A stretch of DNA of 35,035 bases from Aquihabitans sp. (GTDB lineage: Bacteria; Actinomycetota; Acidimicrobiia; Acidimicrobiales; Iamiaceae): the NCBI GenBank assembly GCA_025353965.1, contig JANXNS010000182.1, positions 1-35,035 of the forward strand, written 5' to 3'. Below, piece after piece: positions 13,381 to 33,207 of this stretch. The position numbers and the translations under genes are program-made. A model generated the notes under the pieces. The model had not been told where the DNA came from, did no database searches, and saw only the letters and a program-made list of their open reading frames with translations. The first letter of the stretch is position 1, and every line of letters begins with the position of its first letter.

Positions 13381-13422
13381 TAAACAATCTTTGTTTACTC
13401 CCCGCGACATTCGTGAGAGAAT
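13381..13422 (+). promoter_or_regulatory. Promoter with 7-bp inverted repeat ahead of XRE gene
   Basis: TAAACAA-TCT-TTGTTTA (13381-13397) is a perfect inverted repeat overlapping a weak promoter: TTTACT (13394-13399), 17 bp, GAGAAT (13417-13422). The layout suggests autorepression by the XRE protein encoded downstream. Arms and spacing differ from the repeat at 13247, so two regulators may share the divergent region. Confidence 0.5.
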
Positions 13423-13449
13423 AGATACATAAACGGAGACAGTTAGGCT

Positions 13450-13842: not shown

Positions 13843-13912
13843 GCTGAGGAATCACTCCTGCGATCCTCCGCTTGAGCAGGCCATCACCCTTGACCCTGAA
13901 AGGAGGATCACC

Positions 13913-16449: not shown

Positions 16450-16465
16450 CATCCGCCTGCGCAAA

Positions 16466-16557
16466 GGAGAGGTGCCGGAGTCTGGTTGAACGGGCTTCCC
16501 TGCTAAGGAAGTGACGGGTTAAACCGTCCGTGGGTTCAAATCCCACCCTCTCCGCCA
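16466..16557 (+). tRNA. tRNA-Ser(GCU)
   Basis: 92 nt with encoded CCA. The acceptor stem GGAGAGG/CCTCTCC pairs, the anticodon stem is CTTCC/GGAAG with loop CTGCTAA (anticodon GCT), a long variable arm is present, and the T-loop is GGGTTCAAATCCC. Divergent from tRNA-Ser(UGA), 85 bp apart, so the two share a bidirectional promoter region. A strong terminator follows. Confidence 0.95.
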
Positions 16558-16579
16558 AGGTGATCTCGCGAGAGATCGG

Positions 16580-16623
16580 AAACTCCCCGAACCTGCAAAG
16601 GGTTCGGGGAGTTTCACGTTTTT
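16580..16623 (+). terminator. Rho-independent terminator after tRNA-Ser(GCU)
   Basis: A 14-bp perfect stem (AAACTCCCCGAACC / GGTTCGGGGAGTTT, 16580-16593 and 16601-16614) with a 7-nt loop is followed by CACGTTTTT. It starts 22 nt after the tRNA CCA end. The stem is strong on both strands, with A residues flanking the left arm. Confidence 0.85.
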
Positions 16624-16830
16624 GGCGTTGGCTGGGGTGGTCGTCGGGTGGGCTGGTGGCCGCGGATGGGGTTGAGGGTGAGGTGCCGGAGGGTGACGAC
16701 GCGGGAGTTGTCGATGCGGTCGTGGCGGACGCGCAGGTGGGTGTTGGCGGGGAGGGCGGCGGGGGTGGCCTTTGGGCGTGGGATCGGTGGGGGCGTTGGT
16801 GCTGGCTGATGATCAGGTCGACGATCTCGG
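16614..16830 (-). pseudogene. Decayed IS481-like transposase C-terminus
   Basis: On the minus strand one frame reads RPKATPAALPANTHLRVRHD, then RIDNSRVVTLR joined directly to HLTLNPIRGHQPTRR. In IS481-family transposases an RxKATP, RVRxDRID, VTLR segment and a final LTxDPTRxYQP segment are separated by ~40 residues that are missing here, so this is an internally deleted tail. A QRPHRSH motif, from the integrase-core end (QRPH), lies slightly upstream in another frame, which shows a frameshift. No start and no catalytic DDE core remain. Identification rests on motif memory. Confidence 0.5.
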
Positions 16831-17266
16831 TGCTGAGCATCTGCGGCGAATGCTTCGGACGACGCGACCGGGGCTCGAACGCTTGATCGCCCTCCGCTCT
16901 GGACCCCGGCCATTGCGGCCGGGGTCTTTCGCGCCCCTAGCTCGGGTATTTCTTTTCACCGCGCCGTTGGGTCGTTCGAACGATCTGTGGTGCTGGACCT
17001 TGTGGATCACCGCAGCTCAGGGGGTTGTCGCCGGGCGTTTTCCCGATCTTTGCCCACCGTACGGCTCCGAGACGTGTGTCACGATTGGGCCACAGATGTT
17101 GCATTCCCGTTACCGATGCGACAATCATGTCACTCGTCAATCCTGTCAGCTGATGCGTGGTCGTCTCTCCGGAGACACTCCCCAACCCGCCCAGCGTCGT
17201 GGCTCCGGTTCGCCGCAGCCGCCCGCCCGAGGGCGAACGGGTCCGCCTATCAAGGAGTACGACCAC
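16831..17266 (+). other. Intergenic region before lytic-transglycosylase gene
   Basis: No supported gene in this stretch apart from a terminator at 16902-16930. The leader next to the 17267 start contains a 7-bp hairpin, GTTCGCC (17208-17214) / GGCGAAC (17232-17238), flanked by further C/G pairs, ending 13 nt before the AAGGAG ribosome-binding site. A TTGCAT hexamer near 17098-17103 is a possible -35 element. A CCTGTCAGCTGATG stretch faintly recalls the end of c-di-AMP riboswitches but the rest does not fit. Confidence 0.4.
16902..16930 (+). terminator. Hairpin terminator
   Basis: A perfect 10-bp stem (GACCCCGGCC / GGCCGGGGTC) with loop ATTGC is followed by TTTCG. No gene on either side clearly needs it, so it may be the remaining end of a transcript lost with the adjacent transposase remnant, or the end of an unrecognised RNA. 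Confidence 0.65.
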
Positions 17267-17734
17267 GTGAGCAGCCCCGAGAACACCGACACCATCGAGG
17301 ACGTCACCGTTCCGAAGTTGCCGGTGCGACGGAGCCGCAAGTCGCTGCGGGTGACGGGCTGCCTCTTGGCCCTCGCTGCCTTGGCTTTCGCCAACAGTGC
17401 TTGCACGCCCGAAGCGACAGCGCGGGATGCGGTCCAGAAGTACTGGACCGTGTACTCCCCATGCGCCGACAAGATCGTGGCCCGCGAGTCCGGCTTCGAT
17501 GCCACCGTCGTGAACTCGAGCAGTGGGACCACCGGCCTGTTCCAAATCCACCCGACCCATGCTGCGTGGATAAAAGCCAAGTACGGCTACGAGTTCGGCG
17601 AACTAACCGATCCCTACAAGAACGCCCGAGTAGCCAAGGGCCTCTCGACCGAGGCGTACCGCTACTACGGCGACGGCTGGCAGCCGTGGCGCCTGAGCGG
17701 CAAGGTTGCCCCCGACGGTGGCTGTCCCGCCTGA
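17267..17734 (+). CDS. Lytic-transglycosylase-like lipoprotein
   Basis: 155 aa from GTG at 17267, with AAGGAG ten bases upstream. Residues ~25-46 form a signal sequence ending FANSAC, a loose lipobox with Cys46, so the protein is probably exported and may be lipid-anchored. The catalytic domain is short: ARESGF (Glu74 as likely general acid), then NSSSGTTGLFQIHP and a YG(D)GWQPW ending, matching the SLT transglycosylase pattern (E-S, GLFQI). Such enzymes cleave the peptidoglycan MurNAc-GlcNAc bond. Length is typical of small actinobacterial resuscitation- or growth-linked SLT proteins. Confidence 0.85.
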   Translation: MSSPENTDTIEDVTVPKLPVRRSRKSLRVTGCLLALAALAFANSACTPEATARDAVQKYWTVYSPCADKIVARESGFDATVVNSSSGTTGLFQIHPTHAAWIKAKYGYEFGELTDPYKNARVAKGLSTEAYRYYGDGWQPWRLSGKVAPDGGCPA

Positions 17735-17737
17735 TCT

Positions 17738-18571
17738 GTGGTTCGTTCCCACGTGACCACCAGTGCCTCTGAAGGCAGCAGCAGCCCTCTCCTCGTAAGC
17801 GACGAGGCTCGGGTGCGCACGCTCACCCTCAACCGTCCCGAGGCCCTCAACGCCTGCAACGAGGCCCTCTACGACGCCCTCACGGACGGCCTTCTGGCTG
17901 CGGCCGAAGATCCCGCCGTGGCCGTGTTGCTGCTGACCGGTGCCGGTCGGGCGTTCTGCGCAGGCACGGACCTGGTGGAGATGGCGTCTCGGGTAATGGA
18001 CCCCGAATCGTACGTGGAAGGCAAGCACGGGTTCCTGGGGTTGGTGGACGCGTTGGCGGCCTTCCCCAAGCCGCTGGTGGTCGCCGTCAATGGTTTGGGC
18101 CTCGGCATCGGCACCACGATCTTGGGCTTCGCCGACCTTGCTTTTATGAGCACGGCGGCCCAGCTGAAATGCCCGTTCACCAGCCTGGCCGTTGCCCCTG
18201 AGGCCGCGTCGAGCTTCCTGTTCCCCCGCCTTCTCGGGCACCAAGCGGCCACCTGGGCCTTGCTGAGCAGCGAGTGGCTCAGCGCCGAGGAAGCCCACCA
18301 AATGGGCTTGGTCTGGAAGCTGGCAGCCCCGGAGGACCTCATGGCCGAGGCCCGTCGTCATGCTGAAGTGCTGGCGGCCAAACCGATCTCCAGCCTGGTC
18401 GCCTGCAAACGGGTCATGGTCGCCCCGCTGCGCCAAGAGATCGCCGCGGCCCGCGAACGTGAGAACCAGTGCTTCGCTGAACTCATGGGCGGGCCAGCCA
18501 ATACGGAGGCGCTGGCCGCATTTGGCGAGGGTCGCGTTGCGGACTTCACCAACCTTCCGCCGGGCTGGTAG
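17738..18571 (+). CDS. Enoyl-CoA hydratase/isomerase family protein
   Basis: 277 aa. Crotonase fold signatures are present: LNRPEALNACN, the oxyanion-hole segments GAGRAFCAGTDL and NGLGLGIGTTILGFADLAF, and a catalytic acid region SLAVAPEAASSFLFPRL. The last points to the delta3-delta2 enoyl-CoA isomerase/PaaG-like side rather than a classical hydratase, which usually has two glutamates. It would act on fatty or aryl acyl-CoA beta-oxidation intermediates in the cytoplasm. It starts 3 nt after the upstream stop (GTG 17738; GTG 17753 is an alternative, neither with a clear ribosome site). Confidence 0.88.
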   Translation: MVRSHVTTSASEGSSSPLLVSDEARVRTLTLNRPEALNACNEALYDALTDGLLAAAEDPAVAVLLLTGAGRAFCAGTDLVEMASRVMDPESYVEGKHGFLGLVDALAAFPKPLVVAVNGLGLGIGTTILGFADLAFMSTAAQLKCPFTSLAVAPEAASSFLFPRLLGHQAATWALLSSEWLSAEEAHQMGLVWKLAAPEDLMAEARRHAEVLAAKPISSLVACKRVMVAPLRQEIAAARERENQCFAELMGGPANTEALAAFGEGRVADFTNLPPGW

Positions 18572-18581
18572 CCGGGGAACC

Positions 18582-18944
18582 TCAGCTCAGTTGCCCGGCG
18601 GTGGTGCGGAATTGGTCCTCGGCACGGCAGGGGGCCGGTGGTGGGGTCGGGTGATCGAAGAGGCGAGGGGTGTTGGTCTGTTGGCCGAGCTCGATGTCTC
18701 GGACATGCTTTCTTTGGTCGCTACTGAAGCCGATGGGCCTTGGCTCAGTGGTGGGCGATTTAGTGGTGACCATGGGCAGGCCTGCCTCCACCGCCGCAAA
18801 GCGGATGCCGCACGGGTAGAACCGGCCGTTCTGGGGGTAGCCCTTGAGCGGTTTGAGCCGAAGCGCCCCAGCGTCGGGATCTTCATTGGGCCTGTCGACC
18901 GCCAGGTTGGCGCTACCCCGTTGGCTGGCCAGTGAGGTGCCCGA
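18582..18944 (-). other. Start-less open frame, possible gene remnant
   Basis: A 121-codon minus-strand frame is open between a TAG at 18945-18947 and its stop at 18582, but has no ATG before the last third. It encodes segments such as LKPLKGYPQNGRFYPCGIRF and DQRKHVRDIELGQQ that look protein-like. I recognise no family; it may be a decayed gene between the enoyl-CoA hydratase and tRNA-Arg, or chance in a high-GC stretch. Nothing else is visible in this 398-bp gap. Confidence 0.25.
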
Positions 18945-18969
18945 CTAGGGTCACTTGGCGCCATTGCAA

Positions 18970-19046
18970 GCGCTTGTAGCTCAATTGGATAGAGCATCTG
19001 ATTACGGATCAGAAGGTTGGGGGTTCGAGTCCCTCCAAGCGCGCCA
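18970..19046 (+). tRNA. tRNA-Arg(ACG)
   Basis: 77 nt with encoded CCA. Acceptor GCGCTTG/CAAGCGC, anticodon stem TCTGA/TCAGA with loop TTACGGA (anticodon ACG), and T-loop GGTTCGAGTCC all fit. A tyrosine integrase remnant lies 3 kb downstream, so the 3' end may be an old attachment site. Confidence 0.95.
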
Positions 19047-19063
19047 GCAAGATATGCAGGTCA

Positions 19064-19092
19064 GAGGCGGCCACTGATTCGGAGGCCGCCTC
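19064..19092 (+). terminator. Hairpin after tRNA-Arg
   Basis: A perfect 9-bp stem (GAGGCGGCC / GGCCGCCTC) with an 11-nt loop begins 18 nt past the CCA end. It has no uninterrupted T-tract, so termination efficiency is uncertain, but its position fits the tRNA terminator. Confidence 0.55.
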
Positions 19093-19115
19093 TGTCGCGT
19101 CTGGGCCGGGCCGAC

Positions 19116-19136
19116 TTCTAACGGTTCTTCTAACGG
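19116..19136 (+). repeat. 9-bp direct repeat downstream of tRNA-Arg
   Basis: TTCTAACGG occurs twice (19116-19124 and 19128-19136), with a 12-bp period. Short direct repeats beside a tRNA used as attB are typical arm-type sites of tyrosine integrases, and an integrase remnant lies nearby, but two copies are weak evidence. Confidence 0.4.
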
Positions 19137-19192
19137 ATCGGGCAGAACGGTCCACTGTGCACCACCACGGGCGTGCTCGATGCCAGCGGGGA

Positions 19193-21361
19193 CTAGAGGT
19201 CACTCAGCTCGTTTTCTAGGCGGGCTGCGGCGGTGCCCTCACGTTGGATCTGCTGCCAAGGGAGCCGGGCACCGAGTAAGGCCGTTACCAGCGATTGAAT
19301 GACCACGAGTTCCATGAGCTGGCGGTACACAAACTGTTGGAACGGCATGGCCCACAACGGTCCAAGCGGCTCATGGTCGAGCCGAAACGCGTAGCTGGCG
19401 ATGCCCAATTGGAGGAAGGTGAACCCGAGCCAGGCTAGAAGAACTGGGCCCGGGTTCAGAAACAGGACCCCGTAAAGTCCGTAGAGGTCGATAGCGGGTG
19501 CAAGCAACGGCAACAGGACTTGAAACAAAAGAAGATAGGGAAGAGCCCGGCGCCCGATACCTCGGTGCTCCTGGTCGCGTAGTGCGTGTCGGTGCTTCCA
19601 CATTGCTTGCATCGTTCCGTAGGACCAGCGGTAGCGCTGTCGCCACAGCCCGCTCAGCGAGGAGGGTGCTTCAGTCCAGGCGACGGCCGATTCCTCGTAG
19701 ACGACGCGCCACCCTGCCCGGTTGATAGCCATGGTGAGATCGGTGTCCTCCGCCAAGGTCTCCTCACTGAGGCCGCCCGCGGCGTCGAGGGCTTCGCGGC
19801 GGAAGGCGCCAATGGCACCAGGGACGGTGGGCATGCAATTGAGTTCCTCGTACATGCGCCGGTCAAGGTTGAAGCCCATCACGTATTCGATGTGCTGCCA
19901 CCGGCCGAGAAGCCTGGTGCGGTTGCCGACTTTGGTGTTGCCACTAACAGCACCAACCGTTGGACTGGTAAAGGGGGCGACCAGGTTCCGGACCGTGTCG
20001 GGCTCAAAGACGGTGTCGCCATCGACCATCACGATCAGTGCGTGGTGGGCCGCAGCAATCCCGGTGTTGAGCGCTCGGGGTTTGCCTCCGTTGGTTTGCC
20101 GGATCACCGTGACGTTGGGCAGCGCGAGCGCTTCAGCGATAAGAGCCGTGTCATCGGTCGAGCCGTCGTCGACGACGATGATTTCGACCTCGAGACCGGT
20201 GGATGCCGCGATCGTGGTGATGGTGCCAGCAATGCCGGCCGCCTCGTTGTAGGCGGGAACGATCACGCTCACCGGGCCGAGGACCACCGGTGCACCCCCG
20301 GAAGCGGCCAGGCGCTGGGAGCGTCGGCGGAGATGTCTCCGGGCCAGCACCACGACGGTTATGGCGCGCAGCAATGCCAAGATGCCAATGGGAAGCAAGA
20401 GCCACTGCAAAACTTGAGCGAAGAACGATGACGTCGTCTGAAGCGCCACCATGGCCTGGCCTTCAAGCCGGACCGCACCGTGCACAGGAGCATTCCCCGA
20501 GCGGCTACCAGTGCTCCGGCCTGCACCATGGGTCAGGTCGCTCACCGTCGTGAAGTGGTAGTTCCGGGATTGGAGGCGGGTGAGGAGTTGATCGAGCGCT
20601 TGGACAGTCTGTGACCGGTCGCCGCCACCGTCGTGTAGCAACACGACGGCGCCGCGCCCCGCGGCCGGAGTCGCGTTAGCCACGATGTGGGCCACGCCGG
20701 GTTTACGCCAGTCCTCACTGTCGAGATCGCTTAACACGATGAGATAGCCCTGGGCCGCTACTTGGCGGTAAGCCCGCAGGTCCTGGAATGAGACGGCGTC
20801 CGGGGTCGACGAGTAGGGCGGCCGGAAGAGGTTGGTGTGGATCCCGACCGTCCCAGCCAGTGTCGTTTGGGTGAGCGAGAGCTGGAGGTTCCGCTCCCAA
20901 CCAGCAGCATCGGTCAAATTCTGATGGCTGTAGGTGTGGGAGCCAAGCTCGTGTCCTTCGGCTCGGATCCGTCGAATGGTCGCCGGGTTGGCCGCTGCTC
21001 GAGCTCCAATCACAAAGAAGGTGGCCGGCACATGGTACCGGCGCAGCACGTCGAGGACTAGGGGCGTCCATCGGGGGTCCGGACCATCGTCGAAGGTCAG
21101 CGCAACCGTCCGGGCCGGGGCCTTCACCGATCGTGCGTCATCCTGCGAGAGATCGATAACCGGCCCGGTGCTGGATCGGAATGGCGAAACCTTTGACCGC
21201 TCGCCGGTGGATGGAGCGCCGAGTCGATGATCCGCATAACCGGAGAGAGTCAGGCCCAACACCATCAAGATGGTGGCCAGGCCCCACAGTCCCCAGTGCG
21301 CACGCGGAATTGCGCGAGAGCGCCGGGCTTTCACAGAAGCCTCATGCTGGGTTGCCGCCAA
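19193..21361 (-). CDS. Polysaccharide deacetylase-glycosyltransferase fusion membrane protein
   Basis: 722 aa. A signal-anchor helix (~25-45) precedes a NodB-type deacetylase domain (~85-270): TFDDGPD, SHTYSH and RPPYSS motifs, with HDG near the end. A membrane segment (~315-345) follows, then a family 2 glycosyltransferase: VSVIVPAYNEA, VVDDGS, VDGDTVFEPD (DxD), LAEDTD, QRYRWSYG, and C-terminal helices. The order suggests synthesis of a beta-linked aminosugar polymer on the inner face and de-N-acetylation outside, as PgaC and PgaB do separately. The start is TTG 21361; GTG 21334, with GAGG five bases upstream, may be the true one. The upstream gene ends 6 bp before it. Confidence 0.9.
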   Translation of the reverse strand: MAATQHEASVKARRSRAIPRAHWGLWGLATILMVLGLTLSGYADHRLGAPSTGERSKVSPFRSSTGPVIDLSQDDARSVKAPARTVALTFDDGPDPRWTPLVLDVLRRYHVPATFFVIGARAAANPATIRRIRAEGHELGSHTYSHQNLTDAAGWERNLQLSLTQTTLAGTVGIHTNLFRPPYSSTPDAVSFQDLRAYRQVAAQGYLIVLSDLDSEDWRKPGVAHIVANATPAAGRGAVVLLHDGGGDRSQTVQALDQLLTRLQSRNYHFTTVSDLTHGAGRSTGSRSGNAPVHGAVRLEGQAMVALQTTSSFFAQVLQWLLLPIGILALLRAITVVVLARRHLRRRSQRLAASGGAPVVLGPVSVIVPAYNEAAGIAGTITTIAASTGLEVEIIVVDDGSTDDTALIAEALALPNVTVIRQTNGGKPRALNTGIAAAHHALIVMVDGDTVFEPDTVRNLVAPFTSPTVGAVSGNTKVGNRTRLLGRWQHIEYVMGFNLDRRMYEELNCMPTVPGAIGAFRREALDAAGGLSEETLAEDTDLTMAINRAGWRVVYEESAVAWTEAPSSLSGLWRQRYRWSYGTMQAMWKHRHALRDQEHRGIGRRALPYLLLFQVLLPLLAPAIDLYGLYGVLFLNPGPVLLAWLGFTFLQLGIASYAFRLDHEPLGPLWAMPFQQFVYRQLMELVVIQSLVTALLGARLPWQQIQREGTAAARLENELSDL

Positions 21362-21367
21362 ACAACC

Positions 21368-21943
21368 TCAGCGACCTCCATGAGGTCGCGTCGTTGGCGT
21401 CGGGTGGCTCGTTGGGGGTGAGGGATGGGCAACAGTCGTGGGCGTAGGACGGGTTGTTGGCGGTCCGGTGGTTGGTGGACCGGTCGTCGGCGGTGGCCCC
21501 GTCGTGGGAACCGTGGCCGGTGTCGTGGATGTGGGATGGGCCGCGGTGGTTTGCGTGGTTGTGTCGGGACCGGTGGTGGCGGTCGTGCTGGACCGTGAAG
21601 AGTTGGTGCTCGTGGAGGTTTGACTTCCGGGTGAGTCCGAACCCTGCGGGCCGTTCGGGCCAGCTGCGCTCGTTGCCACTGGGTCGACATTCGCATCGGT
21701 CGACCGCAGGAGAGGACCCGAAGAGGACGGGCCAGAGTTCGAGGCGTGCGGCCGTTGTAGGACCGGACCGAGTCCGGGAAGCGACACGCGCGGTACCCAA
21801 GTTGCGCCAGTTAGTGAAGCGACCGCCAACACGATCCAAACTAGGAGAAGAAGGCCCCCGGCCCACCCGAAGGCACGGGCCAGTCGGACTCGGTGACCGC
21901 CTGGATCCACGAACACCGGTACCGCTGTACCCGGTTGCTCCAT
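21368..21943 (-). CDS. Single-pass membrane protein with Pro/Thr-rich extracellular tail
   Basis: 191 aa. One membrane helix (about residues 26-46) is followed by ~130 residues of low-complexity Ser, Thr, Pro and Gly (TTGPPTTGPPTTRPTP), typical of an extended, possibly O-glycosylated stalk facing outward. It is directly upstream of the deacetylase-glycosyltransferase gene with a 6-bp gap on the same strand, so the two are cotranscribed; it could tether or space the polymer export machinery. No domain recognised. Confidence 0.7.
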   Translation of the reverse strand: MEQPGTAVPVFVDPGGHRVRLARAFGWAGGLLLLVWIVLAVASLTGATWVPRVSLPGLGPVLQRPHASNSGPSSSGPLLRSTDANVDPVATSAAGPNGPQGSDSPGSQTSTSTNSSRSSTTATTGPDTTTQTTAAHPTSTTPATVPTTGPPPTTGPPTTGPPTTRPTPTTVAHPSPPTSHPTPTTRPHGGR

Positions 21944-22032
21944 GGCGGCATCGTAATCTCACCCTCGTTCTGGTAACGGTTCCTTGCACTGACTCACCTC
22001 AAACCTCCGCGGAGCTGGGGCCGTGTTCGGGT

Positions 22033-22825
22033 CTACTCATCGTCGCTGAGCAGGTCGTCGAAGATTTGCGCCGCGTGGGCCTGCATTCCGGGTAGGACGT
22101 GCTGGTACACGTTGAGCGTGAAGCCTGCCGATGCGTGACCGAGGCGCTCCGCCACCACCTTGGCCGGGACGCCAGCCTTGAGGAGCAGGGTTGCGTGGGT
22201 GTGTCGGAGGTCGTGAAAGCGGATGACGGGGAGCTTGTGTGTGGCCACGAGGCGGTTGAAGCCTCGAGTGATGTACTCGGGGTGCTCGGGTTCGCCGTTA
22301 GCGCGGCCGAACAGCAAGCCTTGGCGATCGAACTGTTCTCCGAGTTCTGTTTTCGCCATCTCCTGGGCGGCTTGCCGAGCCTGGAGAGCTGTAGCGGTCC
22401 GTGAGTCGATGTCGATGGTCCGGCGGCCCGATGGCGTTTTGACGTCCGAGACGTGGATCTTCCAACCGACTACGACGACGGCGCGCCGAACCGAGAGGGT
22501 CGATTTCTCGAAGTCGACGTCGTTCCAGCGCAGCCCCATGACTTCGCCTCGGCGCATGCCGGTCTTGGCGGCGACGAGCAGCAGCGTGTGATGGCGGTGG
22601 TCCTTCGTGTCTCGAGGAAGCGGCGGAGGTCTGGGGCGTCCCAGACCTGGATCTTTGATTTGGTCCCGATCGACTCACGCCTGGGTTGGTCGGCGAGTCC
22701 TGCGACGTTGCGGCTGACAACACCCTTGCGGAGGGCGTCAGTGAGCGCCTTGTTGATGACGCGGTGGACGTAGCGGACCGACGTCGGGTCGAGGCCACCT
22801 GTAGTCCTGCCGCGTCGGTTACCGC
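22033..22825 (-). pseudogene. Tyrosine integrase, frameshifted and N-terminally truncated
   Basis: The C-terminal 174 codons (22557-22033) carry the catalytic residues: Arg in GMRRGEVMGLRW, HDLRHTHATLL, GHASAGFT and the nucleophile Tyr in NVYQHVLP. Upstream, the core-binding part (GLDPTSVRYVHRVINKALTD, NVAGLADQP, WDAPDLRRFLE) continues in a different frame, with the shift near 22600. Translation fails further upstream at about 22825, where a different gene ends. So the integrase lost its N-terminal arm-binding domain and has a one-base shift; it is inactive. It is a remnant of a prophage or ICE, probably once targeting tRNA-Arg. Confidence 0.85.
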
Positions 22826-23217
22826 TCCGCAGGGAAACGAAGTCCTACTACCCACCACGAACCTCGGCCGAGAGTTCGTCCCACGACCGGCCATGCGATG
22901 TAGTCGACCAGAGTGAAAAACGGCAGGGACACGAGGCGAAGCAACAATGCTGTGATGGTGAGTTCAGGGTCACCCGTCTCGAACCCAGCGACTTTGCCAG
23001 CCCTGATTCGCTGTAGCCGGTACCTCAGTCGCGATCTGGGCGTCAGGACACGACCCTTGCGGAGAAGAAGCGGTCCGGTCGACACCGCCTCATGATGCTT
23101 GGCTGACCGGGGAACCAGCAAGAACAGCGGGCCCTGTTGGGTCCTGTAGTTCGTCGCCTGAGGTAGCGAATCGGGGGTGCCCTCGATGCGCCAGTAAGTG
23201 ATGGTCGGCGGTCCCAT
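22819..23217 (-). CDS. Small membrane protein, unknown function
   Basis: 132 aa; ATG at 23217 with GGAGGTGAGCG upstream, a good ribosome site. A basic middle (RSRLRYRLQRIRAG) precedes one hydrophobic segment (about residues 86-115, ITALLLRLVSLPFFTLVDYI). It ends within the truncated integrase region, so its own last residues (GLRFPAER) may be altered by the junction. I recognise no family. Confidence 0.55.
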   Translation of the reverse strand: MGPPTITYWRIEGTPDSLPQATNYRTQQGPLFLLVPRSAKHHEAVSTGPLLLRKGRVLTPRSRLRYRLQRIRAGKVAGFETGDPELTITALLLRLVSLPFFTLVDYIAWPVVGRTLGRGSWWVVGLRFPAER

Positions 23218-23302
23218 CGCTCACCTCCATGTCCAGGTGTGAACAACGTCCCGCGACAGCTGTGAACGAAGTCCTGAACTCAGACACCTCCTCGCGCGCT
23301 GG

Positions 23303-23333
23303 GAATCCCGCGGGGGTCGTGCTACCGGGATTC
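23303..23333 (-). terminator. Stem-loop at sulfite reductase 3' end
   Basis: GAATCCCG / CGGGATTC, an 8-bp stem with a 15-nt loop, spans the stop codon of the minus-strand reductase gene. No T-tract follows, so it may protect the 3' end rather than terminate. Confidence 0.4.
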
Positions 23334-25058
23334 GCCGGTTTGGGCCGTCGGCCGCGGGGTGCGCACCCAACGTTCGGTGCCTAGCTCGCCCCGCAGGCGG
23401 TCGACTCCCAGGCGGTGACAGAAGTCGCCGAACCGTTCCCCGTCGTGGCGGTGATCGCGGTAGTGCACCAGCACCGGGCGCAACACGTTGACCAGCTCGT
23501 CGCGGGGGACATTTTGGGCGAAGACGGCGTTGAGGCGGATGCCGACCGGCTCACCCCCAAGGTGGATGTCGTAACTCTTCTTGCCTCGCCCCACGACGCC
23601 GATCTCTGCCGTGTACGGCCGGGAGCACCCGTTGGGACAGCCGGTCATGCGGACATGGGCGTCGAGCCCACCGAGCCCCAGCGCGTCCAGCTCGGCTTCC
23701 AGATCGTCGAGCAAGGCAGGCATGACCCGCTCCGCTTCGGTCAGGGCCAGCCCGCAGGTGGGCAAGGCCGGGCAGGCGAAAGAGTTGCGTTTGATGGGCG
23801 CCCACCGCTCGGCCGGCACCACACCGTGCTCGGCCAGCAGGGCCTCCACGGCCGGCCGGTCATGGTCGGCCAGGTCGGTGAGCAGCACGTCCTCCCTGGG
23901 GGTAAAGCGCACCCCGGGCGAGAACCGCTCGATGACAGCCCGCAGCCCTGAGCGCATCCGCACGCCGTCGCGGTCGATGACGCGGCCGTTGCTGACCTTG
24001 ATCCCAAGGAACCAGCGGCCGTCGCCCTGGGGGTGCCAGCCGAGATGGTCGTCGGCGGCTGCGAAGACGACGGGCTCGGCGTCGGGGAGCGAATAGCCGA
24101 GGCGCCCCTCCACGGCAGCTCGGAACCGCTCGATTCCCCAGCCGTGGACCAGATACTTGAGCCTGGCTTGGGCGCGGTCGCTGCGGTTGCCGTTGTCTCG
24201 CTGAACCCCGACGATGGCCTCGAGGACCTCGAACAGCTTGTCGGCGGCGATCGTGGTCAGCGGGTCGGCGAGCCGGGGGAAGGTGTCGGGGTTGGTGTGG
24301 TTCTTGCCCATGCCGCCCCCGACGAGCAGGGTGAACGCCCGCAGGCAATCGCCGTCAAGCACGGGCACGACCCCGATGTCGTGGGTGTACACATCCACAC
24401 AGTTGTCACCCGGGAAGGCGAAGCCGATCTTGAACTTCCGGGGTAGATAGGTGGCGCCGTAGATCGGCTCGTCGTCGGGCACCTCGGCGGTCACCGCTTG
24501 CTCCCCGTCGAGCCAGAGCTGGAAGTAGGCGTGGGAGCGGGGTCGGAAGCGTTGGGCCACCTCGTGGGCGTAGGCCTGGACGTCGGTGCGGATCGGGTCG
24601 GCGAGCGGCGCCGGGCAGCACATGGTGTTGCGCACCACGTCGCCGCATGCCCCCAGGGTGGTGATCAGGTGGTGGTTGAGAGTGGAAAGCAGCGACGTCA
24701 GATCACCCTTGTCGACGAAGTGGTACTGGATCCCCTGGCGGCTGGTGATCCGCAGGGTGCCGTTGCCTACGGCGTCACACAGCTTGTCCATGGACAGGTA
24801 CTGCTCGGCGTTGAGGATTCCGCCGGGAATGCTGACCCGCACCATGCAGCTGTGGTCGAAGTCGAGGCCCTGGCGTTTCCGCTCGGTGCGGACGTCGCGA
24901 TCGTCCTGCTGGTAGATCCCGTGGAACTTGAGCAGCTCGTAGCTGTCATTGGAGAAGACCGGGACGTCAGCGGCCAGCTCCTCGGCGATCGTGCCCCGCA
25001 GGTGGTCGCTGGTGACCTTTATCCCTTCGACCTTGGAGACGGGGGTGTCGTTGGTCAT
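23322..25058 (-). CDS. Siroheme [4Fe-4S] sulfite/nitrite reductase, hemoprotein subunit
   Basis: 578 aa; ATG with GGAG 6 bases upstream. Two ferredoxin-like and two siroheme domains alternate as in the sulfite/nitrite reductase family: SRQGIQYHFV in the N-terminal half and the cluster-siroheme ligands FACPALPTCGLAL and GCPNGCSRP (C-x5-C, C-x3-C) near residues 430-480. Length matches CysI-type or ferredoxin-dependent assimilatory enzymes that reduce sulfite to sulfide (or nitrite to ammonia). No flavoprotein partner lies beside it; the ferredoxin in the suf operon is a possible donor. It is 12 bp downstream of sufR on the same strand, so it is likely repressed together with the Fe-S system. 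Sulfite is favoured by context, but not certain. Confidence 0.88.
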   Translation of the reverse strand: MTNDTPVSKVEGIKVTSDHLRGTIAEELAADVPVFSNDSYELLKFHGIYQQDDRDVRTERKRQGLDFDHSCMVRVSIPGGILNAEQYLSMDKLCDAVGNGTLRITSRQGIQYHFVDKGDLTSLLSTLNHHLITTLGACGDVVRNTMCCPAPLADPIRTDVQAYAHEVAQRFRPRSHAYFQLWLDGEQAVTAEVPDDEPIYGATYLPRKFKIGFAFPGDNCVDVYTHDIGVVPVLDGDCLRAFTLLVGGGMGKNHTNPDTFPRLADPLTTIAADKLFEVLEAIVGVQRDNGNRSDRAQARLKYLVHGWGIERFRAAVEGRLGYSLPDAEPVVFAAADDHLGWHPQGDGRWFLGIKVSNGRVIDRDGVRMRSGLRAVIERFSPGVRFTPREDVLLTDLADHDRPAVEALLAEHGVVPAERWAPIKRNSFACPALPTCGLALTEAERVMPALLDDLEAELDALGLGGLDAHVRMTGCPNGCSRPYTAEIGVVGRGKKSYDIHLGGEPVGIRLNAVFAQNVPRDELVNVLRPVLVHYRDHRHDGERFGDFCHRLGVDRLRGELGTERWVRTPRPTAQTGESR

Positions 25059-25070
25059 GGGCCTCTCCGG

Positions 25071-25790
25071 TCACGCACGAAGCTCATCCGTTGCCGGTGT
25101 CACCGCAACCGGCCGGCGCCGCCGAGGCGCAGCCACCCGGTGATCACGTGGTCGGACCTCATACCCGCAGGCGTAGGCGCCTGCCGCTTTGTGCGCGACC
25201 CGCTCGACCTCGACCTCGGGTAGAACCTCCCGGAGGAACTCGAGCTCGGTGGTGCAGGCCTGACCGTACCGGGATGCCACGGCCCAGATGGCGCAACTGT
25301 GCAGGGTCATCCTGTAAGCACCGCCGGGCAGCTTCTCGAAGTCGGCGAGGTATCCCTCCTCGTCGAGCATGCCGGCGAGGAACGCCATCTTCTCGTCGAG
25401 GTTCTTGCCCGCCATTTGTGTCCGAGCTTGCTCAACCCGCCGATCTCGGCGCCGCTCGAAGATGCGGGAGACGAGCTGTGGGTCCTCCTCCTCGATGTGG
25501 CCGAGTAACTCCACAGAAAGATCGACGGAGACCTTGGAGAGCACTGCCTCGGCGAGATCGGTGCTGTGGTAGAGGTCAGTCGGGCGCCCCGACCGGCCTC
25601 GCTCCTGACGGGCGGCGACGATCCCGGCGGCCCTGAGGGCGGCCAGGTGCTGACGGACACCGCTCGGAGTAATTCCCAAGGCCTCCGCCAGCTCTTCCGC
25701 CGATGCTTCCCCTCGCCTCTTCAGTGCGACCACAACCTGCCTTTGGGCAGCCGAAAGATCAACCGGAGGCACGTGGACAGCGTTCATCAT
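25071..25790 (-). CDS. sufR: SufR-type Fe-S-dependent transcriptional regulator
   Basis: 239 aa. An N-terminal winged helix (~15-75) contains AEELAEALGITPSGVRQHLA. The C-terminal domain has Cys166 and Cys179 (C-x12-C) and Cys208 in AYACGY, the three-cysteine ligand pattern of SufR that holds an Fe-S cluster. SufR represses suf genes when it carries its cluster and releases DNA when the cluster is lost. It is divergent from the suf operon, with a promoter and inverted repeat between them, and cotranscribed with the sulfite reductase. A TAGACT hexamer 6 nt before the ATG may give a leaderless transcript. Confidence 0.88.
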   Translation of the reverse strand: MMNAVHVPPVDLSAAQRQVVVALKRRGEASAEELAEALGITPSGVRQHLAALRAAGIVAARQERGRSGRPTDLYHSTDLAEAVLSKVSVDLSVELLGHIEEEDPQLVSRIFERRRDRRVEQARTQMAGKNLDEKMAFLAGMLDEEGYLADFEKLPGGAYRMTLHSCAIWAVASRYGQACTTELEFLREVLPEVEVERVAHKAAGAYACGYEVRPRDHRVAAPRRRRPVAVTPATDELRA

Positions 25791-25827
25791 GCTTTCAGTC
25801 TAACGCCCGCAAGGCCAAGACGCCAGG

Positions 25828-25857
25828 TTGACAAGTAGTAACTTGCGTAACTATCCT
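25828..25857 (+). promoter_or_regulatory. suf operon promoter with putative SufR operator
   Basis: TTGACA (25828-25833), 18 bp, TATCCT (25852-25857). Inside the spacer is an inverted repeat CAAGT-AGTA-ACTTG (25832-25845), placed to block RNA polymerase when SufR is bound. The arms resemble, but do not equal, the CAAC-N6-GTTG-type SufR sites known from other bacteria. The implied start is near 25864, giving a 100-nt leader. Confidence 0.65.
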
Positions 25858-25896
25858 CTATGGGGCACCAACCCGCAGCCACACGGAGACGAGACG

Positions 25897-25971
25897 ATGA
25901 CTCGATCGGCGATTGCGATCACCAGGTACACCCCGATGGGCGAGGTCCTAGCGGGGGACCTGGGATCATGA
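25897..25971 (+). CDS. 24-aa leader ORF overlapping sufB start
   Basis: An ATG at 25897, with GGAG 8 nt upstream, opens a 24-codon frame ([20 protein letters not shown], then DLGS) whose TGA overlaps the sufB ATG (ATGA, 25968-25971). It fills most of the 100-nt leader behind the promoter. It could couple sufB translation to leader translation. It has no cysteine codons, so simple cysteine attenuation is unlikely. Real expression is unproven. Confidence 0.5.
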
Positions 25972-27409
25972 CCGACGTATCGAGCGAGGTCCGCGAGTTC
26001 GCCAGCCGGGAGTACCAGTACGGGTTCGTGACTGATCTCGAGACCGACGTCGCGCCACGGGGTCTGAACGAGGATGTTATTCGGCTTATCTCGTCCAAGA
26101 AAAACGAGCCGGACTGGATGCTCGAGTGGCGCCTCAAGGCCTACCGGGGCTGGCTCACGATGGAGGAGCCCACCTGGCAGAAGGCCAACTACGCGCCGAT
26201 CGACTACCAGGACATCATCTACTACGCCGCTCCCAAACCGAAGGTGGCGCTGACCAGCCTCGACGAGGTCGATCCCGAGGTGCTGGCCATGTTCGACAAG
26301 CTGGGGATCTCCCTGGCCGAGCAGGAGCGCCTGAGCGGCGTCGCCGTCGACGCAATCGTCGACTCGGTGTCGGTGGCCACGACGTTCAAGGAGAAGTTGG
26401 CCGACGTCGGCGTCATCTTCTGCTCCTTCTCCGAGGCGGTCCAGTGTCACCCCGAACTGGTAAAGCGATACCTCGGCACCGTGGTTCCGAGGAGGGACAA
26501 CTTCTTTGCCGCCCTGAACTCCGCGGTGTTCTCCGACGGCTCGTTCTGCTTCATCCCCAAGGGGGTGCGCTGCCCCATGGAGCTTTCCACGTACTTCCGT
26601 ATCAACGCCGCCGATACCGGCCAGTTCGAGCGGACGCTCATCATCGCCGAAGAGGGCGCCTCCGTCAGCTACCTCGAAGGCTGCACGGCCCCGATGCGCG
26701 ACACCAACCAGCTCCACGCCGCGGTCGTCGAGCTCGTCGCCCTTGATGACGCCCAGATCAAGTACTCCACGGTGCAGAACTGGTACCCGGGCGACGCCGA
26801 AGGGCGGGGCGGCATCTACAACTTCGTCACCAAGCGTGGGAAGTGCGCGGGGGTGAACTCGAAGATCTCTTGGACCCAGGTCGAGACTGGCTCGGCCATC
26901 ACCTGGAAGTACCCGGGGGTGATCCTCCAGGGCGACAACTCAGTTGGCGAGTTCTACTCGGTCGCCCTCACGGCCAACCATCAGCAGGCCGACACCGGCA
27001 CGAAGATGATCCACATCGGCAAGAACACCAGCAGCACCATCGTCTCCAAGGCCATCTCCGCCGGCCACGGCCAGAACACCTACCGGGGCCTCGTGAAGGT
27101 CCTCGACTCGGCGAGCGGCGCTCGCAACCACACCCAATGCGACTCGCTGCTCTTGGGCGGCGACTGCGGCGCCCATACCTTCCCTTACGTCGAGGTGAAG
27201 AACCCAACGGCACAGGTCGAGCACGAAGCGTCGACCTCCAAGATCGGCGAGGACCAGCTTTTCTACTGCCGCCAGCGCGGCATCCCCGAGGAGGACGCAG
27301 TGTCGATGATTGTGAACGGCTTCTGCCGTGAGGTGTTCAAGGAGCTGCCCATGGAGTTCGCGGTCGAAGCTCAGAAGCTGCTCAGCGTCAGCCTGGAAGG
27401 GAGCGTCGG

Positions 27410-27413
<4 letters not shown>
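25968..27413 (+). CDS. sufB: Fe-S cluster assembly protein SufB
   Basis: 481 aa from ATG at 25968; an in-frame ATG at 25860 sits on the -10 box of the promoter and cannot be used. The sequence follows SufB throughout: [13 protein letters not shown] near the start, [70 protein letters not shown], then [20 protein letters not shown] and [11 protein letters not shown] near the end. SufB forms the SufBC2D scaffold on which Fe-S clusters are built, with the GC and H region near Cys of NHTQCDSLL as part of the sulfur tunnel. It overlaps the leader stop and the sufC start. Confidence 0.97.
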
Positions 27414-28194
<781 letters not shown>

Positions 28195-28198
<4 letters not shown>

Positions 28199-29532
28199 CC
28201 ACCACGGCCACCACTGCGTCGCCCCGGGGCCTCGCCGGCCTCGAACCCGCGCTCAATGGCCACCAGCCGGGCTGGCTTGGAGGGATACGCCGCGCTGGCC
28301 TCGAGTGGGTGGCAGAGCACGGGTTCCCCACGCTCGGCGACGAGGACTGGAAGTACACCCGGGTCGGGCCCATCCTGGACGTCCCCTTCCAGCCGGCCGT
28401 AGGCGGGATGAAACACCGGCTGTCGGCGAGCGCCATCGACGGGCTCGCGGGCGACCTTGGCGGCACGCGGCTGGTCTTCGCCAACGGCTACTTCGCTCCC
28501 GAACTGTCAACGCTGATGGCGCTTCCCGAAGGCACAACAGTGACCAGCCTCGCCTCGGTGCTGGCCGGCGACGCTGAACGTCTCGAACCCTTCCTGGCGC
28601 GCCCGCTCTCATCGCAACACCACGCCTTCACCGCGCTAAATGCCGCGCTCGCCGAGGACGGAGCGTTCATCCAGATCCCGCCCGATGCCACCATCGCCGC
28701 GCCGATCCACCTGGTGTTCGTCTCCGACGCCGGCGCCTCCCCGCTGGTGTCGAGCCCGCGGTCGGTGGTGCACGCCGGTGCCCGAAGCCAGGCGACGATC
28801 GTCGAAACCCACGTCGGGAGTGGCGGCGTGTACCTCACGAACGCGGTCACCGAGGTGATCCTCGAGGACGGTGCCCAGGTCCAGCACTACAAGGTGCAGG
28901 ACGAGGCCGACACCGCGTTTCATCTGGCGGCCCTGCACGTGAGACCCGGTCGCGACAGCAGCTTCTCCACCCACGCACTGGCCCTCGGCGCCGCTATCGC
29001 CCGCCACGAGGTCTGGGTGAAGCTCGAGGCCGCGGGGGCGGAGGTGACCCTCAACGGCCTGTACCTGCCCGACGGGAACCAACACCACGACAACCCGACG
29101 TTGATCGAGCACGTTGCGCCCCGCTGTACCAGCCGCCAGCTCTACAAGGGCGTCCTGGGCGGGCATGGCCGGGGGGTGTTCAACGGGCACATCGTCGTGG
29201 GCCCTGACGCGCTGGGGACCGACGCCAGCCAAACGAACAAGAACCTGCTCCTCTCCGACACGGCAGAGGTCGACACGCGGCCGCGGCTCGAGATCCTCAC
29301 CGACGACGTGCGCTGCACCCATGGGGCCGCAGTGGGCCAACTCGACGAGGAGGCCGTGTTCTATCTGCGCTCGCGGGGTGTCCCCCACCAGCAGGCCCGG
29401 GGCGTGCTCACCTACGCGTTCGCCGGCGAGATGCTGCAGCTCATTGGGGTGGGGCCACTGCGGTCCCGTGTCGAGAGCAAGGTCGCCGAGCGCCTCAACC
29501 GCGAAGATACCGACCGGGAGACGTTCCGATGA
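28195..29532 (+). CDS. sufD: Fe-S cluster assembly protein SufD
   Basis: 445 aa; ATG 28195 overlaps the sufC stop. Landmarks are EDWKYTRVGPI near residue 50, HAFTALNAALAEDGAFIQIP, EVTLNGLYLPDGNQHHDNPT, GVFNGHIVVGPDALGTDASQ and TYAFAGEMLQ near the end, all SufD-family features. SufD pairs with SufB in the scaffold. Gene order sufB-sufC-sufD differs from the B-D-C order seen in many actinobacteria, which I recall but cannot check here. Confidence 0.95.
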
Positions 29533-29990
29533 GCAGCGACCTCCGGGGTCTCTACCAGGACGTAGTCGTCGACCACGGCCGCCATCCGCGGAACTTCCGC
29601 GAGATCGCCGACGCCACCCGCACCGCGGAGGGCGTCAACCTCTTATGTGGCGATCAGCTCACGCTTTACGTGAAGCTCGCCGACGACCGCATCGAAGACA
29701 TCGCCTTCCAGGGCGTCGGCTGCGCCATCTCGCAGGCCTCGGCTTCTTTGATGACCACGGCCCTCAAAGGTAAGAACCAACAAGAGGCCCTCGCTCTGTT
29801 CGGCCCCGTCCACGCCATGCTGACTGAAGGTCCCAACGGCGAGGTCCCGCCCGAAGAACTGGGCAAGCTCGCCGTGCTATCGGGCGTCTGGGAGTTCCCG
29901 ATGCGGGTGAAGTGCGCCACCCTCGCCTGGCACACGCTGCGAAGCGCCCTCGAATCCGAATCAACCGCCGACCGCGTGTCGACGGAGTAG
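29529..29990 (+). CDS. sufU: SufU sulfur-transfer/scaffold protein
   Basis: 153 aa; ATG overlaps the sufD stop. The three conserved cysteines are in LLCGDQLTLY, FQGVGCAISQASASLM and VKCATLAWHTL, with Asp after the first (CGD), the zinc site of SufU. SufU takes persulfide sulfur from the desulfurase SufS and passes it to SufBCD. No SufS lies in this window, so the desulfurase must be elsewhere. Confidence 0.95.
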   Translation: MSSDLRGLYQDVVVDHGRHPRNFREIADATRTAEGVNLLCGDQLTLYVKLADDRIEDIAFQGVGCAISQASASLMTTALKGKNQQEALALFGPVHAMLTEGPNGEVPPEELGKLAVLSGVWEFPMRVKCATLAWHTLRSALESESTADRVSTE

Positions 29991-29996
29991 GTGACC

Positions 29997-30545
29997 ATGA
30001 CCGACCGACATACCTCAATCGAACTCCAGCGGGACTGCGAGGTAACCGTGATCCCCGGTGGCGACAGGATCACGCTCCGGCGCGGCGACCAGGTACAGGT
30101 CACCCAAGCCCTGGGCGGCAGCTTCACCGTCACCACCAGCCAGGGCTACCTGGCCCGGATCGGGGCCGCAGACGCCAGCGCGCTCGGCCTGGCCCCTCTG
30201 CCGGCGATCGACCAACCGTCGGCGTCGGGCCCGTTCGAGGTCCAGCAGGTGATCGAGCAGCTCAAGACCGTCTTCGATCCGGAGATCCCCGTCAACGTCG
30301 TAGATCTCGGCCTCATCTACACCTGCGAGGCGCAACTGCTCCCCGACGGCGGCAACCGGGTCGAGATCAAGATGTCCATGACCGCTCCCGGCTGCGGGAT
30401 GGGCGACGTGCTCCGCGAAGACGCCATCGCCAGGGTGCAGGAGGTTCCCGGCGTCGCTGAGGTCGACGTCGAGCTCGTCTGGGACCCGCCCTGGGGCCCG
30501 GAACTCATGTCCGAAGCCGCCCAACTCGAACTCGGCATGTTGTGA
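29997..30545 (+). CDS. sufT: SufT-type MIP18/DUF59 Fe-S maturation protein
   Basis: 182 aa from ATG 29997 (GGAG 9 bases upstream; a GTG at 29991 is only 3 bases from GGAG). An N-terminal beta-rich domain (~10-60) precedes a MIP18/DUF59 domain with FDPEIPVNVVDLGLIY and MSMTAPGCGMGDVL, including the conserved Thr and Cys. SufT proteins help load clusters onto target enzymes. It continues the suf operon, 6 bp after sufU. Confidence 0.92.
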   Translation: MTDRHTSIELQRDCEVTVIPGGDRITLRRGDQVQVTQALGGSFTVTTSQGYLARIGAADASALGLAPLPAIDQPSASGPFEVQQVIEQLKTVFDPEIPVNVVDLGLIYTCEAQLLPDGGNRVEIKMSMTAPGCGMGDVLREDAIARVQEVPGVAEVDVELVWDPPWGPELMSEAAQLELGML

Positions 30546-30627
30546 GAAGGAACGTACCGTCGGCCCAGAAGCCGTTGCCCGACGCCGAGACCACCCGACC
30601 AGCCGTACCAGAGGAGAACACATCACC

Positions 30628-30873
30628 ATGAAGGTTTGGATCGATCAGGACCTGTGCACGGGCGACGGCCTGTGCGAAGAGATAGCACCCGACGTGTTTA
30701 CCCTCCTCGACGACGGCCTGGCCTACGTCAAGGAGGGCGACAAGGTCTTCGCTGCTGCCAAGGGCAACCCCGAGGGTTCCGAGGGCATGGCGATCATTCC
30801 CGCCGGCCAGGAGGAGGCCGTAATCGAGTCGGCCGAGGAGTGCCCAGGCGAATGCATCTTCATCGAGTTTTAG
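30628..30873 (+). CDS. Small ferredoxin
   Basis: 81 aa; AGGAG 10 bases before the ATG. Cysteines are at 10, 16, 72 and 76 in CTGDGLC and CPGEC, i.e. C-x5-C then C-x3-C. The second cysteine of a classical CxxCxxC is replaced by Asp-13 position residues, the pattern of [3Fe-4S] or mixed ferredoxins that serve P450 systems. An inserted loop (~35-60) is longer than in P450 ferredoxins. It may carry electrons for the sulfite reductase or for suf reactions. The 82-bp gap to sufT is the largest inside the operon. Confidence 0.9.
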   Translation: MKVWIDQDLCTGDGLCEEIAPDVFTLLDDGLAYVKEGDKVFAAAKGNPEGSEGMAIIPAGQEEAVIESAEECPGECIFIEF

Positions 30874-30881
30874 ACACGACC

Positions 30882-32093
30882 GTGCCCGGCAACCCGGTGG
30901 CTGAGGAGGCCGTACGCAACGTTCTGCTCGGGGTGATGGACCCGGAACTGGGCGATAACATCGTGGACCTGGGCATGGTCCAGCGCATCGAGATAGACCC
31001 GCTGGGCGGCGACGTGGATGTCACCATTTCCCTGACCACGTCCGGCTGCCCATTACGAGCCCAGATCATGAAGGACATCAAGCGGCGCGTGGCTGGCCTG
31101 CCCGGTGTCGCCGAGGTGCGGGTCCACTTCGGCGAGATGACCACAGAACAGAAGAAAAACGTCATGGCTCGGGCCCGGTTCAAGGCGCGCGACAATGCGC
31201 TCGACACCGACATCCCGGCCACCACTCGTATCGTGGCCATCGCCTCGGGCAAGGGCGGAGTGGGCAAGTCCTCGGTTACCGCCAACCTGGCCGCGCAGCT
31301 GGCCCAGCGGGGCCTCACGGTCGGTGTGCTCGACGCCGACATCGGCGGGTTCTCCATCCCCCGCATGCTGGGCGTAGAGGGCCGGGTCCAGGGCGAGAAG
31401 GACAAGACTGGGCGGGCCCGGTTCGCACCGCTGGAGAAGCCGATCGGGTCGGGCCTGCTCAAGGTGATGTCGATGGGTTCGATCGAGGGGACAGGCGAGG
31501 ACCAGGCCATCATGTGGCGGGGGTTCATGCTCAACCGGGCCGTGCAGCACTTCCTCGAAGACGTGGCCTGGGGCGACATGGACTACCTGCTGATCGACAT
31601 GCCCCCAGGCACCGCCGACATCCAGATGGGCCTGGCCCGCATGCTGCCGCGCACCGAGGTGGTGATCGTCACCACCCCGACACTGGCCGCCCAGCAGGTG
31701 GCGGCTCGGGCGGCCGACATGGCTCGCAAGGGCTACCTGCGGGTGGCCGGAGTCGTCGAAAACATGAGCGCGTCGGTGGCTCCCGACGGCACCCGGTATG
31801 CCGTGTTCGGCGCGGGCGGGGGCGAGCGCCTGGCCGAACAGCTCGGCGTGCCCCTGCTGGGATCGATCCCCCTCGACCCAGCCGTGGCCGCCGGGGGCGA
31901 CGCCGGTGAGCCGGCCGCGATCGCCACGCCGCAATCACCGGCGGCTCAAGCCTTCGCTGCCCTGGCCGAGTGCATCGTGACCGAGGCCATCCCGCTCGTC
32001 GAGATGGTCACCTGCACCGCCCGACAGTTTTTCAAAGCCGCCGGCCTGCTGAACCCCATGCACAACGACAAAACAAGGAGCCCTTTCCCATGA
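30882..32093 (+). CDS. Mrp/NBP35-type Fe-S carrier ATPase with N-terminal DUF59 domain
   Basis: 403 aa from GTG 30882; an ATG at 30852 inside the ferredoxin gene is also in frame, and neither has a strong ribosome site. Residues ~10-85 are a MIP18/DUF59 domain (MDPELGDNIVDLGM, TSGCPLRAQI). The P-loop ATPase follows: SGKGGVGKSS, DADIGGFSIPRML, LLIDMPPGTAD. The CxxC pair normally after ENMS is absent (ENMSASVAPDGTRYAVF), as in other actinobacterial Mrp proteins, so cluster binding is altered. It transfers Fe-S clusters to targets. The stop overlaps the next start. Confidence 0.93.
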   Translation: MPGNPVAEEAVRNVLLGVMDPELGDNIVDLGMVQRIEIDPLGGDVDVTISLTTSGCPLRAQIMKDIKRRVAGLPGVAEVRVHFGEMTTEQKKNVMARARFKARDNALDTDIPATTRIVAIASGKGGVGKSSVTANLAAQLAQRGLTVGVLDADIGGFSIPRMLGVEGRVQGEKDKTGRARFAPLEKPIGSGLLKVMSMGSIEGTGEDQAIMWRGFMLNRAVQHFLEDVAWGDMDYLLIDMPPGTADIQMGLARMLPRTEVVIVTTPTLAAQQVAARAADMARKGYLRVAGVVENMSASVAPDGTRYAVFGAGGGERLAEQLGVPLLGSIPLDPAVAAGGDAGEPAAIATPQSPAAQAFAALAECIVTEAIPLVEMVTCTARQFFKAAGLLNPMHNDKTRSPFP

Positions 32094-32440
32094 GCACCAC
32101 CGAGGTAACCACCACTCCGGTCATCAACCTGACCGACCAGGCCGCAGGCAAAGTCGCTGAGTTGCTGGCCCAGGAGGGCGACGACCAGCTCGCCCTGCGC
32201 GTCGCCGTCAAGGCCGGCGGGTGTTCAGGGATGTCCTACGAGATCTTCTTCGACACCGCCACCGAGCCCGAGGACCATGAGGTCGTGTTCGGCACGGTCA
32301 AGGTGAGAGTCGACCCGGCCAGCGCCCCCCACCTCGCTGGTGCCACCCTCGACTACAAGGACGGCCTCAACGACGCCGGGTTCCACATCGAGAACCCCAA
32401 CGCCCAGCGCTCCTGCGGCTGCGGGCAGTCGTTCTCGTGA
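32090..32440 (+). CDS. A-type Fe-S carrier (ErpA/IscA/SufA family)
   Basis: 116 aa; ATG 32090 with AAGGAG upstream. The three cluster cysteines are in AGGCSGMSYEIF and the C-terminal SCGCGQSF, the A-type carrier hallmark. These small dimers deliver [2Fe-2S] or [4Fe-4S] clusters to apoproteins. The start overlaps the mrp stop; the stop overlaps the DUF169 start. Confidence 0.95.
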   Translation: MSTTEVTTTPVINLTDQAAGKVAELLAQEGDDQLALRVAVKAGGCSGMSYEIFFDTATEPEDHEVVFGTVKVRVDPASAPHLAGATLDYKDGLNDAGFHIENPNAQRSCGCGQSFS

Positions 32441-33207
32441 CGCGTGACGCGCCAGGAGAGGCGGTGGATCCCCTGGTCCGTCAGAACTGGCCTGAGCTCA
32501 GCGAACGACTCGTCAAGGTCCTCCGGCTCGCCACGGCCCCGGTGGCCATCAGCTTCGCTGACAGCCCGCCGCCGGGCGTCGACCGCTTCGACGCCCCGAT
32601 GCCCGCCGCGACCGATGACGGTCGCCAGGGGCGGGTTCCGGCTGGCTGCGTGTTCTGGGTGCACGGAGCCAAGCGAGCGTTCGCCACGGTGCCCGAGGAC
32701 CACGGCAACTGCAGCGTCGGCAGCGTCACCCATGGCCTGCTGGCGCCGAGCGAAGTGGTCGATCACAGCGACATCGCCGCGCTGGTGGGCGCCGGGTGGG
32801 TCGGCCCCGACGTTCTCGAGCAGCTGCCCAAGGTGACCGGACAGCCAGGATCGGTCGTCTACGCGCCGCTCCAGGACACCCCGGTCGAGCCTGACGTGGT
32901 GCTCTTGAGGGTCAACGCCCGTCAGCTGATGGTGCTGTCCGACGCGCTGCCGGGCCTATCGATCGGGGGAAAGCCGCAGTGCCACATCGTGGCGCTGGCC
33001 AGAGAGCACGGTGTCCCGGCGGCGAGCGTGGGCTGTGCGCTCAGTCGCCAGCGGACCGGTATGGGCCCCGAGGAGATGACGTGTGCCCTGCCCGCCCCAC
33101 AACTCGCCTCGATCGTCGCAGCCCTCGAGAAGACCTCAGGGATCGATGCAACCGTCGGTCGGTACGCCGCCGAGGACGCACGCCGCTTTACGATCCAGGG
33201 GTCGTGA
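32437..33207 (+). CDS. DUF169 family protein
   Basis: 256 aa from GTG overlapping the carrier stop. Family features: VAISFADSPPPGV near the start, GCVFWVHGAKRAFATVPEDH, NCSVGSVTHGL, LRVNARQLMVLSDALPGLS, GKPQCHIVALAREHG, VGCALSRQRTGM with several conserved Cys (about residues 71, 92, 182, 200, 216). DUF169 proteins are often near methanogen, radical SAM or Fe-S enzymes; their function is unknown. The cysteine pattern suggests a metal or Fe-S cluster site. Tight coupling to the suf genes and to the ATP-grasp gene suggests a shared pathway. Confidence 0.85.
   Translation: MTRDAPGEAVDPLVRQNWPELSERLVKVLRLATAPVAISFADSPPPGVDRFDAPMPAATDDGRQGRVPAGCVFWVHGAKRAFATVPEDHGNCSVGSVTHGLLAPSEVVDHSDIAALVGAGWVGPDVLEQLPKVTGQPGSVVYAPLQDTPVEPDVVLLRVNARQLMVLSDALPGLSIGGKPQCHIVALAREHGVPAASVGCALSRQRTGMGPEEMTCALPAPQLASIVAALEKTSGIDATVGRYAAEDARRFTIQGS

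Follow-up and report, generated by a model that had tools for sequence, protein, structure and literature searches.

Why does a sulfite reductase gene follow the regulator gene of an Fe-S cluster assembly (SUF) operon that carries no gene for the sulfur donor SufS? The question is raised by a 35,035-nt stretch of DNA from Aquihabitans sp., the whole of which we call the window. In the window, sufR is divergent from a closely spaced row of plus-strand genes, sufB-C-D-U-T-ferredoxin-mrp-sufA, and sir lies behind sufR (Table 1). Profile searches of the window proteins found no SufS in the operon. These profiles, the 12-nt gap and the shared strand confirmed the starting point of a sequence-only reading of this DNA, namely that a sulfite reductase stands behind sufR and that the operon has no SufS. 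That reading had gone on to propose either that sulfide supply is regulated together with Fe-S biogenesis or that sulfide feeds the SUF system more directly than by cysteine desulfurase.

Table 1. Positions in the window of sir, sufR, the suf operon and associated sites
Feature	Position	Strand	Basis
Truncated tyrosine-type integrase, downstream of sir	22033..22557	-	ORF read by eye; plasmid match annotated as site-specific integrase
sir, CysI-type siroheme [4Fe-4S] assimilatory sulfite reductase, 578 aa	23322..25058	-	profile, PDB matches, active-site residues
sufR-sir gap, 12 nt, ribosome-binding site GGAGAGG before ATG	25059..25070	-	sequence
sufR, winged-helix regulator with three cluster-type cysteines	25071..25790	-	TIGR02702 96.5 bits; C166/C179/C208 conserved in relatives
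Predicted sufB promoter, TTGACA-18-TATCCT	25828..25857	+	consensus match only
Candidate SufR operator CAAGTAGTAACTTGCGTAACT, overlapping the sufB promoter	25832..25852	+	similar sites in G016, G091
sufB	25971..27413	+	NF008773 909 bits
sufC	27410..28198	+	TIGR01978 352 bits
sufD	28201..29532	+	TIGR01981 271 bits
sufU, zinc-type (C40, D42, C65, C129), SufS sulfur acceptor	29529..29990	+	TIGR01994 151.8 bits; residues
sufT	29991..30545	+	TIGR03406 221 bits
Single-cluster ferredoxin, possible electron donor (putative role)	30628..30873	+	PF13459 64.6 bits
Mrp/ApbC-like Fe-S carrier with DUF59 domain	30870..32093	+	PF10609, PF01883
A-type carrier (ErpA/SufA-like)	32090..32440	+	TIGR00049 118 bits

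The Sir of the window, as read from its sequence, is a complete CysI-type sulfite reductase. It scored 693.6 bits against the profile NF010029, above the cut-off of 457, and did not reach the cut-offs of TIGR02041 and TIGR02042. A nitrite reductase was ruled out by NirA-family scores far under the cut-off. Two structures match it nearly end to end: PDB 5h8v, a ferredoxin sulfite reductase from a plant, and PDB 6c3m, the CysI of E. coli. All four cluster/siroheme cysteines are retained, in the motifs CPALPTC and CPNGC. Residues R74, R143, K208 and K210 fall at the positions of R83, R153, K215 and K217, the sulfite-binding residues of E. coli CysI. A domain search of the genome found no CysJ-type FAD_binding_1 domain. 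Therefore, "NADPH-dependent" in the name of the Sir family is unsupported here, and because no CysJ-type flavoprotein was found, the electron donor of Sir is probably ferredoxin. A candidate for siroheme synthesis is present at C7 of the genome (PF13241, 79 bits).

The regulator scored under the cut-off (178.8 bits) of TIGR02702, the cyanobacterial SufR equivalog, and hence we call it a SufR homologue and not the cyanobacterial equivalog. It has a winged-helix N terminus and the cysteine pattern C166-x12-C179-x28-C208. This trio resembles the three essential cysteines C203, C216 and C244 of M. tuberculosis Rv1460 (PMC6034842). Many relatives also have SufR-like regulators (L165-L177), 43 to 49% identical to the window SufR, that lie away from suf genes.

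The sufR-sir junction reads ...CGTGCGTGA CCGGAGAGGCCC ATG. A scan of positions 22000 to 26200 returned a single sigma-70-like site, on the plus strand at 25828-25857. The range held no terminator-like site and, on the minus strand, no sigma-70-like one, which is weak evidence against a separate promoter for the reductase, the arrangement that the sequence-only reading had named as contrary to its proposal. sufR may still contain a promoter of a kind that the scan does not cover. The layout suggests that sufR and sir are probably on one transcript.

The site CAAGTAGTAACTTGCGTAACT is a candidate SufR operator. The genomes G016 and G091 have close counterparts of it upstream of sufR, and G072 and G076 less clear ones. 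It is itself the only exact match in the genome, and a search that allowed up to 3 mismatches gave none close to the suf genes at C204 or the sir at C251, both described below. It is unlike the cyanobacterial SufR operator, CAAC-N6-GTTG (PMC8593673). Joint control of sir with suf is plausible on two grounds, the short gap and the promoter-overlapping site, versions of which are also seen next to sufR in relatives; the shared transcript itself is a prediction from the sequence. In G072, a gene like O-acetylhomoserine sulfhydrylase or cystathionine gamma-synthase (L160 8823-10034) is convergent on sufR. This may be a further sulfur gene next to sufR, or a chance neighbour.

We searched the genome for sufS and found one protein above the TIGR01979 cut-off, at C204 (33615-34823); the genome also encodes further class V aminotransferases. 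The C204 SufS has an HPHD motif, and its catalytic Cys lies 19 residues past the second His of the motif. In the M. tuberculosis SufS, His354 and Cys373 are equally far apart (PMC10216065), and by this motif the C204 SufS is of the SufU-dependent kind. C204 also bears a second SufU, adjoining sufS, and a second SufC, SufD and SufB, the last 45% identical to the window SufB. This SUF set covers about 21 kb, from L185 5919-7316 to L183 14944. Its sufB, sufD-sufC and sufS-sufU stand apart, interrupted by unrelated genes such as those for a transporter and a Lon-like protease. The four residues of the window SufU listed in Table 1 are the pattern of zinc-type SufU (PMC10216065), which accepts persulfide from SufS. 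Therefore, the partner of SufS is encoded in the window operon. The sequence-only reading would have been refuted by a sufS located elsewhere and regulated with suf. The first half was found, at C204; the candidate operator was not found near that sufS.

The relatives point in the same direction. SufB of the window type (73 to 86% identity) occurs in 15 of the 98 other relatives, often with a second SufB of the 45% type. Around these loci, several of which are truncated by contig ends, we found no SufS, no sulfite reductase and, with the same search, no SufU. SufS is present somewhere in 85 of 99 relatives (E up to 1e-100), and in G072 it lies outside the suf cluster. Thus, absence of sufS is usual for the accessory SUF cluster and is independent of the reductase.

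These results bear on the idea that Sir passes sulfide straight to SufBCD and replaces cysteine desulfurase, a route that has been proposed for methanogens that use sulfide. An operon without sufS would fit, and there is a precedent in Methanococcus maripaludis, which uses sulfide and has no cysteine desulfurases (PMC8593673). However, the genome encodes SufS, the window operon encodes its partner SufU, and the sister clusters that have no sufS have no sir either. We regard direct feeding as very improbable here, and the proposal of a sulfide route more direct than cysteine desulfurase did not hold up; a reductase at C251, described next, also speaks against it. Sulfide in place of SufS was ruled out by the C204 SufS, the second SUF set and the zinc-type SufU. 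Because SufS is encoded elsewhere in the genome, nothing here points to a new sulfur route.

The genome has a second sulfite reductase, of the NirA/SirA-like family, at C251 (7964-9733), with cysH immediately after it, and this rules out the window Sir as the sole sulfite reductase. The CysI type was found in none of the same-genus genomes, where the weak matches belong to the NirA/SirA-like family, and a strong CysI-type match occurs in 27 of 395 genomes of the class, our own genome counted. The usual neighbours of a CysI-type reductase are cysH and a cysG-like gene. No SufR-like gene stood beside the reductase in the best 80 loci of the genome collection or in the remaining class genomes with a strong CysI-type match; of the roughly 100 CysI-type homologues examined, not one had sufR as a neighbour. 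In this set the sufR-sir pairing thus shows no conservation. The closest homologue of the window Sir (72% identity) is L018, which comes from another Actinomycetota bin and forms part of a cysH-sir-cysG-like operon. The two are joined in the tree at 99% support, outside the clades of the window's own order. The deep forks of this tree are weak, and we therefore hold horizontal acquisition of sir to be likely and no more than that.

A gene acquired in this way could have landed behind sufR by chance during assembly of the island, with its own promoter or with no selected link to Fe-S biogenesis. This is the main rival to the explanation that we prefer. It is favoured by the absence of the pairing from all 80 loci and from the other class genomes, by the truncated integrase that adjoins sir, and by the second Sir with cysH, which makes the window Sir redundant. 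However, the tight gap, the ribosome-binding site of its own and the intact active site suggest a sir that is expressed and kept. We consider chance placement unlikely, while giving it real weight.

As a reference for the composition of the window we used 52 chunks, each 5 kb long, taken from 20 further contigs of this genome. Positions 15001-25000 fit the bin, and positions 1-15000 and 25001-35000 lie in the lowest few per cent. Taken with the remnant of an integrase at 22033-22557, the pattern suggests that the contig is native and has acquired segments. A plasmid search found no plasmid bearing the sir-suf block. A neighbouring glycosyltransferase is of no use as a binning control, because it is missing from the relatives in the genus. 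If the contig came from another organism, the SufS and the second Sir of the bin would not be its own. The composition of 25001-35000, in the lowest 2 to 4% of core chunks, would agree with such a binning artefact, as would the fact that the nearest SufB and SufR are those of G072, which belongs to another family. However, the composition of 15001-25000 agrees with the bin, several relatives also have both kinds of SUF, and G072 too keeps its SufS outside the suf cluster. A binning artefact is, in our judgment, improbable.

Two other regions of the window drew our attention. Positions 13450-16449, with tRNA-Ser at 16295-16380, resemble L184 27-2884 of the same genome, with tRNA-Ala at 2820-2895. 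Each combines an ImmA/IrrE-like gene with a large serine recombinase gene whose 3' end overlaps the tRNA gene on the opposite strand, and the two are possibly related elements with tRNA genes as integration sites. A long open frame covers positions 3-5261; it is truncated at the start of the contig and contains repeats of approximately SADAFYNNGQTSGSL..GTPFVDPAVP. Its product is probably a repetitive exported or surface protein.

The explanation that we prefer, and hold to be probable, is that sir encodes a spare and probably acquired assimilatory sulfite reductase, is the final gene on the sufR transcript within an accessory SUF island, and probably rises together with suf. The divergent promoters would be repressed by SufR as long as it holds its cluster. 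A drop in the Fe-S supply would release SufR, and sufR-sir and sufBCDUT would go up together. Sir would then reduce sulfite to sulfide, probably driven by ferredoxin, and the sulfide would enter the cysteine pool. From there, the C204 SufS and SufU would carry cysteine sulfur to SufBCD. The occurrence of the sufR-sir pairing in one genome only counts against this explanation. We also propose, tentatively and as something possible though doubtful, that SufR senses Fe-S and directly controls sulfite reduction, which would place sulfide supply in the SufR regulon and let it rise with the accessory SUF system. If SufR does control sir, a regulator of Fe-S assembly would also set the entry of inorganic sulfur, and the enzyme under its control itself requires a [4Fe-4S] cluster. 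The sufR-sir case fails as evidence that bacteria have a SUF system fed by sulfide.

We found no description of a sulfite reductase behind sufR in the open-licence papers searched. Among the nearest known systems are the SufR-controlled suf operons of Actinobacteria, sufRBDCSUT of M. tuberculosis and sufRBDCSU of Streptomyces avermitilis, which likewise place a three-cysteine SufR homologue beside sufB, sufC, sufD, sufU and sufT. However, the window sufR is divergent, there is no sufS, sir stands behind sufR, and a second SUF set with SufS is found elsewhere in the genome. Cyanobacterial sufR/sufBCDS shares with the window the divergent type of SufR control over sufBCD and the B-C-D order; it differs in that the window SufR has three cysteines and not four, the candidate operator is another one, sufS is absent from the operon, and sir follows sufR. 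The cysH-sir-cysG operons, such as that of L018, contain the same type of reductase, with up to 72% identity and all active-site residues, whereas the window sir has neither cysH nor cysG and lies behind sufR. SUF-like minimal systems (SMS) and the sulfide-fed SufBC of methanogens resemble the window in having scaffold genes without an adjoining cysteine desulfurase gene, but the window has a full SufBCD and a zinc-type SufU, with SufS in the genome. Set beside these systems, sufR-sir consists of known parts and varies the SufR-suf arrangement in a single genome.
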